DNA of 58,823 nucleotides from Phycisphaerae bacterium (GTDB lineage Bacteria; Planctomycetota; Phycisphaerae; Phycisphaerales; SM1A02). The notes under the pieces were generated by a model. The model made no database searches. It was not told the DNA's origin and worked only from the letters and a program-made list of their open reading frames with translations. This document shows positions 56,347 to 57,657 of this stretch, in pieces (positions within the stretch are counted from its first letter, which is position 1; each line of letters starts with the position of its first letter). The stretch is taken from assembly GCA_002862305.1 (NCBI GenBank), contig PKCS01000064.1, positions 1 to 58,823 on the forward strand. Reading direction: 5' to 3'. The position numbers and the translations under genes are program-made.

Positions 56347-57027
56347 TCAGGACTGGACGTTCCTGAGCACCTGCGCCAGCATCTCGCGGTACCGCGCGAC
56401 CTCCTCCGCCTCCAGGGTGATCCCGAGGTCGCCGAGGATCGACTCGAGGTCCTGGATCAGCAGGTGCAGCACCGATCCCATCAGCACCCGGCAGCCGATG
56501 GCGATCTCCCGGAGCGGTCCCACCATCGTCTCCCCGTCGGCCTCCGGGGCCGACACCGCCAGCGCGAAGGCGTGGAACCCGTCCCGGGTCAGCGCGGCCA
56601 GCTCGATGAGCTGCTCGTCCTCGCCGCGGTCCATGCGATCGCAGAACGCCGCGGCGTAGGCCCGGCCCCGGTCGACCGGCAGGGCGGTCTCCTGCGCGAG
56701 GGCCTGGGCGATGAGCTCGCGTCGGAAGTCCTCGCGCCCGCCCTGGAAGGACCGGTGCAGGTTGTCGGCCATGGTCGCCACCCCCGCGTGCATCAGTTCG
56801 AGCAGTCGGGGGTGGGGGATCGCGGTGCCGAAGAGCACCAGCGGCAGGGGGTCGGGGTGCACCGGATCGGTGCGGTTGCAGGTCACCAGCATCACGGTGT
56901 TCAGCCAGTTCAGCATGTCGGTGAACCGCCGGCGGTCCGATTCGTCGAACCGTTCCGGGAGGTCCACCAGCCGGACGTGGTCGCGGCCGGGTGGCGGTCC
57001 GGGGTCCGGGCTGGGCTGGTCGGTCAT
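56347..57027 (-). CDS. hypothetical helical protein of 226 residues
   Basis: A soluble 226-residue protein, mostly helical by eye, with no signal or transmembrane segment. Segments include DESDRRRFTDMLNWLNTVML, MHAGVATMADNLHRSFQGGR and ESILGDLGITLEAEEVARYR. No family is recognised. The start at 57027 has only a weak GGGGA nearby. The reading upstream is proline-rich and then runs into the tandem repeats, so it was not extended. A TAAGGT hexamer at 57131-57136 would give a leader that contains all six 10-base repeats. It is convergent with the kinase gene, and divergent from the small membrane protein. Confidence 0.5.
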   Translation of the reverse strand: MTDQPSPDPGPPPGRDHVRLVDLPERFDESDRRRFTDMLNWLNTVMLVTCNRTDPVHPDPLPLVLFGTAIPHPRLLELMHAGVATMADNLHRSFQGGREDFRRELIAQALAQETALPVDRGRAYAAAFCDRMDRGEDEQLIELAALTRDGFHAFALAVSAPEADGETMVGPLREIAIGCRVLMGSVLHLLIQDLESILGDLGITLEAEEVARYREMLAQVLRNVQS

Positions 57028-57036
57028 GCGATCCCC

Positions 57037-57096
57037 GTCGAGGTGGGTCGAGCTAAGTCGAATTGGGTCGAGGTGTGTCGAGGTGGGTCGAGGTAC
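57037..57096. repeat. six tandem 10-bp repeats, consensus GTCGAGGTGG
   Basis: Six consecutive 10-base units, starting at 57037, 57047, 57057, 57067, 57077 and 57087. All begin GTCGA; units 1 and 5 are GTCGAGGTGG, unit 4 GTCGAGGTGT, unit 6 GTCGAGGTAC, unit 3 GTCGAATTGG, unit 2 GTCGAGCTAA. The tract ends ten bases before the start codon of the minus-strand gene. Confidence 0.85.
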
Positions 57097-57130
57097 GTAG
57101 TCCGCGGCGTCGGTGACGTCGCTGCCTCGA

Positions 57131-57136
57131 ACCTTA
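57131..57136 (-). promoter_or_regulatory. candidate -10 element TAAGGT upstream of the repeat tract
   Basis: GGTAAGGT on the minus strand fits the local TAnnnT pattern. If used, the transcript would start near 57124 and carry the six 10-base repeats in a leader of nearly 100 bases. Confidence 0.35.
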
Positions 57137-57151
57137 CCGGCCCGCGTCCCT

Positions 57152-57187
57152 GCGTGCACCGCGTGCCTGGCGTGCACGGCGTGCACG
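57152..57187. repeat. four tandem 9-bp repeats, consensus GCGTGCACG
   Basis: Four consecutive 9-base units: GCGTGCACC, GCGTGCCTG, GCGTGCACG, GCGTGCACG. Three contain the palindrome GTGCAC. They lie between the 10-base repeats and the -10 element of the small membrane protein gene. Confidence 0.85.
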
Positions 57188-57217
57188 TCGAGTCTGGCCG
57201 GGAGCGGGCCGGTCGAG

Positions 57218-57223
57218 TAGGGT
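57218..57223 (+). promoter_or_regulatory. candidate -10 element TAGGGT giving a leaderless transcript
   Basis: AGTAGGGT ends exactly six bases before the ATG at 57230, with no Shine-Dalgarno sequence. Confidence 0.5.
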
Positions 57224-57229
57224 CTGGCG

Positions 57230-57616
57230 ATGCCTCGAGACGACCCCGCCAGCCCGTCGCCGGTCGATCCGCACCCGGGCGGGTCGGTGCTCCGCGGCGC
57301 CTCCCTCCTGTGGAACCTCCTCCAGACCCTCGCCGCCTGCGGCCTGGTGCTGGGGATCCTCCTGGTCTGGATCCAGGGCTGGTCGGGCAGCCTCGACATC
57401 GACGACTCGGGGTACGTCTCCGGGTTCCTGCTGTTGCTGATGTTCGCGCTGCTGCTGGTGATCGGCCCCACCGCGCTCTGGCACGCCCAGACCCTCCGCC
57501 ACCGCGGCACCAGGCCCGCCGGGCTGGTCCGCGGGCTGTTCGTCGCCAACGCGGTCTGCACCGCGTTCGTCTACCTGGTGCTGGGGCTGATCGTACTCCG
57601 CCTGATCGTCCGCTGA
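57230..57616 (+). CDS. small three-helix membrane protein
   Basis: A 128-residue protein with a proline-rich polar N-terminus of about 20 residues and three hydrophobic helices: TLAACGLVLGILLVWIQGW, FLLLLMFALLLVIGPTALWH and AVCTAFVYLVLGLIVLRLIV. A short loop after the first helix is acidic (LDIDDSGYV). No family is recognised. It is probably an inner-membrane protein. The start is supported by a TAGGGT hexamer six bases upstream. It is convergent with the secreted protein gene and flanked by short tandem repeats on both sides. Confidence 0.55.
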   Translation: MPRDDPASPSPVDPHPGGSVLRGASLLWNLLQTLAACGLVLGILLVWIQGWSGSLDIDDSGYVSGFLLLLMFALLLVIGPTALWHAQTLRHRGTRPAGLVRGLFVANAVCTAFVYLVLGLIVLRLIVR

Positions 57617-57657
57617 GTGGGCCGGGTGTGCGGGTGCGTCGGGTGTACGAGGTGCGT
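57617..57657. repeat. imperfect GT-rich short repeats in a convergent gap
   Basis: The gap between the two convergent stops reads as degenerate 8-10-base units: GGGTGTGC, GGGTGCGTC, GGGTGTACGA, GGTGCG. They resemble the 9-base repeats upstream of the same gene but are less regular. Confidence 0.5.

Follow-up and report, generated by a model that had tools for sequence, protein, structure and literature searches.

A partly decayed array of six decamers beside a rare gene in a Phycisphaerae bacterium is more likely a leftover of small duplications than a regulatory switch

A stretch of 58,823 nt from a Phycisphaerae bacterium (contig PKCS01000064.1; hereafter the window) carries six 10-bp units in tandem, one helical turn apart and immediately beside a start codon. 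This arrangement resembles an operator. We asked whether the array is a set of binding sites for a protein, an element of the leader RNA, or a product of duplication. Controls with other periods and other words, which serve as a calibration of the first impression, demonstrated that arrays of this kind recur in the family. The array is most likely close to ordinary, a leftover of small duplications rather than a regulatory switch.

The decamer array and its surroundings

The array occupies positions 57037 to 57096, where six decamers follow one another head to tail on the plus strand with a start-to-start spacing of 10 throughout. The units are, in order, GTCGAGGTGG, GTCGAGCTAA, GTCGAATTGG, GTCGAGGTGT, GTCGAGGTGG and GTCGAGGTAC, with the consensus GTCGAGGTGG on the plus strand and CCACCTCGAC on the minus strand. 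They had been described in a first-pass annotation as six exact 10-bp repeats, each opening with GTCGA. GTCGA does open all six units and the period is exactly 10, but the units as wholes differ: the six comprise five distinct sequences, the only identical pair being units 1 and 5. All units share GTCGA in the first five columns and T at position 8, and positions 6, 7, 9 and 10 vary. Tandem Repeats Finder reported 77% matches for the 10-bp period (score 74) and 79% for a 20-bp period (score 83). The better fit of the longer period is expected if units were copied in pairs, and by eye units 1 and 2, as well as units 5 and 6, are alike as pairs.

Two divergent genes enclose the array in a non-coding gap of 202 bp (57028 to 57229). 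Nine bases (57036 to 57028) separate the array from the first base of the ATG at 57027 on the minus strand, which is the start of a gene for a 226-aa protein of unknown function (56347 to 57027, minus strand). The start codon next to the array is supported by aligned start codons in three orthologues, 59, 43 and 41% identical to the protein. No match to the protein was found in Pfam or NCBIfam at E≤0.1, nor any relative in a collection of genome contigs. The AlphaFold model, made from 4 sequences with a mean pLDDT of 83, is all helical, and this predicted structure had no match in the PDB at E≤0.001. We considered a coding repeat and rejected it, since a period of 10 is not a multiple of three and the orthologue starts align with the ATG at 57027. 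The minus-strand frame is open through the gap, and codon-position GC there (0.73/0.58/0.78) is not gene-like when set against that of the gene itself (0.75/0.44/0.95).

On the other side of the gap, a 128-aa ORF (57230 to 57616, plus strand) has gene-like codon-position GC (0.71/0.47/0.96), and a search of the 181 family genomes matched it to itself alone. The motif TAGGGT is present on the plus strand at 57218 to 57223, six bases ahead of the ATG of this ORF, and to judge from its placement it could yield a leaderless mRNA. A serine/threonine protein kinase gene (Pfam PF00069; 53472 to 56306) and the 226-aa gene converge. Judged by eye, these two genes are also paired at two of the orthologue loci (L007 and L008).

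A second short tandem array, with about four copies of the 9-bp unit GGCGTGCAC, is located at 57142 to 57187, between the same two divergent genes and 46 bp from the decamer array, and overlaps a 14-nt inverted repeat. A third, weak array was found at 57623 to 57657. Three short arrays, each with its own unit, thus share a span of 620 bp, which is better explained by local duplication than by a single motif that some factor recognises. The unit GGCGTGCAC is also arrayed in a genome of another genus (G097, locus L261), with flanks unlike those in the window.

Variation among the units and the operator reading

We searched 459 kb of the genome (the window and 20 further stretches) for runs of any 5-mer repeated at least four times at a fixed period of 7 to 20. 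Eleven such arrays were found, ten of which have a period divisible by three; nine of these ten are outside the window and the tenth is the neighbouring 9-bp array. The eleventh, the decamer array, is the only run with a non-triplet period. No run of four or more copies arose in six order-2 Markov simulations, each of 459 kb. Within the window, GTCGA-N5-GTCGA was seen 8 times against 0.58 expected, with five of the eight pairs in the decamer array and three as single pairs elsewhere. The array is real and unusual for its genome, and chance is an unlikely origin. As the sole non-triplet run in 459 kb, it also indicates that the genome is not generally rich in such arrays, a point against a minisatellite.

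The geometry invites comparison with operators of the OmpR/PhoB family, with which the array shares a 5-mer core, a 10-bp spacing of direct repeats, about one helical turn, and the placement of all cores on the same helix face. The CpxR box is laid out as GTAAA-N5-GTAAA. According to passages of PMC7380067, the direct repeats bound by many OmpR-family members differ in number, spacing and sequence, and OmpR itself occupies a target of 20 bp in the form of a tandem dimer. On this model the six sites, each a 5-base core followed by a 5-base spacer, would hold three dimers between the promoter and the start codon and would repress the 226-aa gene, or activate it if the promoter were nearer.

The pattern of variation agrees with such a core. 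All eight departures from the consensus are confined to four of the ten columns, and the five-base block is untouched, as is the T at position 8. When eight departures were placed at random, the five-base block was spared with P = 0.018 and four or fewer columns varied with P = 0.041, although these values are post hoc and assume independent changes, and shared descent of the units would weaken them. Because variation avoids GTCGA to this extent, an operator array is a possible explanation, if an improbable one. The five bases outside GTCGA have an identity of 0.55 across the units of the array. Among the matches listed for named genomes, this tail identity is lower in only 4 of the 53 GTCGA decamer arrays with at least five copies, a set drawn from at least 119 GTCGA stretches, several of them from one genome. 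The low value suggests either that the array is old, its core kept by luck, or that it is partly constrained. In a narrower form of the proposal, one dedicated regulator would bind the private row of six GTCGA sites head to tail while the spacers drift; we regard this as quite unlikely. Proof of constraint on the core would make the locus a case in which a minisatellite gave rise to a new operator.

Further copies in the genome bear directly on the operator. In the 2.67-Mb genome, GTCGA-N5-GTCGA-N5-GTCGA has a single occurrence, and a GTCGA pair in which both units have T at position 8 is present only at the decamer array, the reversed control being found at 1 place. Looser GTCGA pairs lacking that T number three others in the window. 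The first-pass annotation had suggested a search for the same unit before other genes, and genome-wide both patterns lead only to 57037-57096. With no second three-copy site and no further T-bearing pair, a regulon sharing the decamer site is not visible, which weighs against the operator.

Conservation in relatives, the lack of which the annotation had named as a refutation, gave a similar answer. The 226-aa gene is present in 4 of the 181 family genomes including its own, so that three orthologues are available in the 180 others. Upstream of all three (loci L006, L007 and L008) the array is absent. These orthologues are distant, 41-59% identical, and the absence therefore shows only a lack of deep conservation and is silent on strains. 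The four other genomes of the same genus, one of them 92% complete, had neither a match to the 226-aa gene nor a three-copy GTCGA array. In G151, which has a 54% identical orthologue of the neighbouring kinase gene, a different ORF comes after that gene. The array thus differs from OmpR/PhoB-family operators in having no further array in the genome and no conservation before the orthologues found.

A DNA search with the gap and its edges (56980-57240), in which at most four candidates were scored per genome, matched the query over its length in the own genome only. In 8 of the 180 other genomes the search gave hits of 28-43 bp, which fall in different parts of the query; one of them, in G079 with 86% identity, spans 57027-57061 and covers two and a half decamer units. 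Exact four-copy GTCGA at period 10 is present in three of the 181 family genomes, namely the own genome, G002 and G078, and the remaining bases differ among them. When up to two mismatches were allowed, the count was 25 of 181, compared with 4 for the reversed control. Only the own genome, of all 181, shows the decamer array itself. Titles and abstract openings of the literature searched did not name it. We conclude that the decamer array is lineage-restricted and partly decayed, and that the gene next to it is rare and of unknown function.

The putative leader RNA

The array could also act as RNA. TAAGGT, which had been pointed out as a possible upstream promoter, is indeed present on the minus strand at 57136-57131. 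If this hexamer were the −10 element of the 226-aa gene, a possible assignment made from the letters alone, the array would be set in a leader of roughly 97 nt, between the −10 element and the start codon. The transcribed CCACCUCGAC repeats would then act on translation in a copy-number-dependent manner, for example through pairing with a Shine-Dalgarno-like sequence or through binding of an RNA-binding protein. A scan for the sigma-70 consensus predicted no promoter, so that transcription of the array can only be inferred, which counts against an effect at the RNA level.

The proposed switch had drawn on CACCUC, the core of the anti-Shine-Dalgarno sequence, as a feature of the repeats. This core is intact in units 1, 4 and 5 but lost in the other three, and carries little weight as evidence. 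Folding of the leader with the array was ordinary, with a z-score of −0.16 and 85 of 200 shuffles folding at least as well, and the leader had no match in Rfam at E≤1. The centroid fold pairs UCGAGG at the 5' end of the leader with the unit closest to the start codon, which favours the RNA reading, but in the minimum-energy fold this UCGAGG, and not the bases just before the start codon, is the partner of CCUCGA of the distal unit. The RNA switch is not supported by these results, and we consider a leader-RNA element highly improbable.

No quadruplex was predicted in the fold. The G4Hunter score of the array is 0.77, a value reached by 4% of the 60-mers in the window, and the plus strand alone folds somewhat better than its shuffles (z −2.0).

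A palindrome or a mobile element was also considered and rejected. The sole inverted repeat spanning the array in 56980-57260 has arms of 16 nt (81%) with 218 nt between them, and a plasmid search with 56900-57400 returned no match. The array lacks long arms, unlike a locus on a Planctomycetaceae contig (L049; JAIRLW010000258.1, 2059-2162), where divergent ORFs flank an inverted repeat of about 100 nt that contains TCGAC decamers.

Short tandem arrays across the family

A period of exactly 10 would place any bound protein on one face of the helix, and this had been offered as an argument for function. We examined the spacing across the 181 family genomes. Four-copy runs of TCGA were found in 12 genomes for period 10, a count that includes the own genome, in 17 for period 11 and in 15 for period 8. 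For the reversed word AGCT the corresponding counts were 1, 0 and 2; AGCT is 3 to 6 times rarer than TCGA as a word, which may account for its far fewer arrays. Four copies of GATC at period 10 were found in 27 of the 181 genomes. In a 400-kb sample of the genome, TCGA occurs once per 82 bases and GATC once per 84.

By a rough estimate, chance would supply about 17 places per spacing for four-copy TCGA across the family. Because chance adds to these counts, arrays whose non-anchor bases are alike (identity ≥0.6) were counted as well, on fetched loci taken one per genome, the 12 at period 10 comprising 11 loci and L142. Such arrays made up 9 of 12 TCGA loci at period 10, 10 of 17 at period 11 and 14 of 15 at period 8, and for GATC at period 10 all 20 loci, from 27 genomes. 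Periods 8 and 11 are about as frequent as 10 for TCGA, and GATC arrays likewise occur at 10; the helical phasing therefore carries little weight and is not evidence for an operator. The commonness of the word TCGA was tried as the cause and rejected, as it does not explain the six-copy GTCGA run in the window.

A crude gene caller, which misplaces the window's own array inside a gene, put 27 of 45 TCGA arrays, chance-like hits included, in intergenic positions. Both neighbours were called for 24 of these; the flanking genes were convergent for 11 arrays, on the same strand for 9 and divergent for 4. Among GATC arrays, 13 of 20 were intergenic, 4 between convergent and 1 between divergent genes. 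For arrays between convergent genes there is no adjoining start codon that could be regulated. Non-coding gaps of the family thus contain recurrent short tandem arrays of diverse unit and period, which share neither a unit nor a period nor a placement with respect to genes.

These results favour a non-coding minisatellite, probably formed by tandem duplication in the gap between the divergent genes and since made less regular by point mutations. Replication slippage or unequal recombination may have repeated a segment of 10 bp, or a pair of such segments of 20 bp, up to a total of six units, and later substitutions would have made the units differ. Recognition of the array by a protein or an RNA is probably unneeded, and the array would then be neutral. 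Any effect on the downstream gene would be incidental, the result of a longer or shorter spacer in the promoter region or the leader. A slippage product was one of three readings in the first-pass annotation, beside the operator and the RNA switch, and it emerges as the best supported, given that the units are degenerate, no conservation was found and arrays recur family-wide.

Slippage could also have a function. If it were frequent, as at contingency loci, changes in copy number would make the locus vary in phase or level by tuning the spacing in the promoter or leader. The array adjoins the start codon, and each unit gained or lost would shift the spacing by about one helical turn. However, interrupted and diverged units (77% matches) are expected to slip rarely, and only the own genome of the 181 shows the array, and we give a phase-varying locus very little credence.

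Two of the closest known systems are described in published sources. Prokaryotic non-coding satellites and minisatellites are defined in PMC6749651 as at least four head-to-tail repeats of at least 10 nt, with internal regularity asked. With six tandem copies of a 10-nt unit outside genes, a position supported by codon-position GC and the orthologue starts, the decamer array agrees with that definition in copy number, unit length and intergenic position. It appears to depart from the regularity asked there, with five different units in six and matches of 77% at period 10 and 79% at period 20. The GGGNATC heptamers of Xanthomonas and Nostoc, as described in passages of PMC4692102, are likewise short tandem units in intergenic positions, and in both cases the G-rich strand is opposite the gene and the repeats lie close upstream of the start, at 10 to 69 bp for the decamer array and at 0-50 bp for the largest heptamer group. 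In contrast to the heptamers as presented in that source, the decamer array is a single locus rather than genome-wide, and its fold has no quadruplex.

Arrays with the same anchor and the same period are also present in named genomes. GTCGA decamer arrays were found in Lentisphaeria (JAQWBY01), Caldilineaceae (MPML01) and Planctomycetaceae (JAIRLW01); across the at least 119 stretches in named genomes the remaining five bases differ, and many of the arrays are near-perfect and some palindromic. The Lentisphaeria genome has them on at least nine contigs (L018, L026, L034, L045, L067, L069, L082, L083 and L087), with up to 12 copies among the matches listed.

Other units were also observed in arrays within the family. 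The near-identical decamers GATCAAGCAT and GATCAGGCAT are arrayed in six genomes of three genera (G014, G021, G056, G129, G132 and G134), in some of them at more than one locus, and look like a dispersed satellite family. Octamer arrays of TCGATGCC or TCGATCCC are present in G052, G056, G057, G063 and G090, with many loci in G063 and several in G056, and some of them lie between convergent genes. The 11-mer TCGACCATGAC is in tandem in two genera, at G006:C41:26671 and G177:C16:53384.
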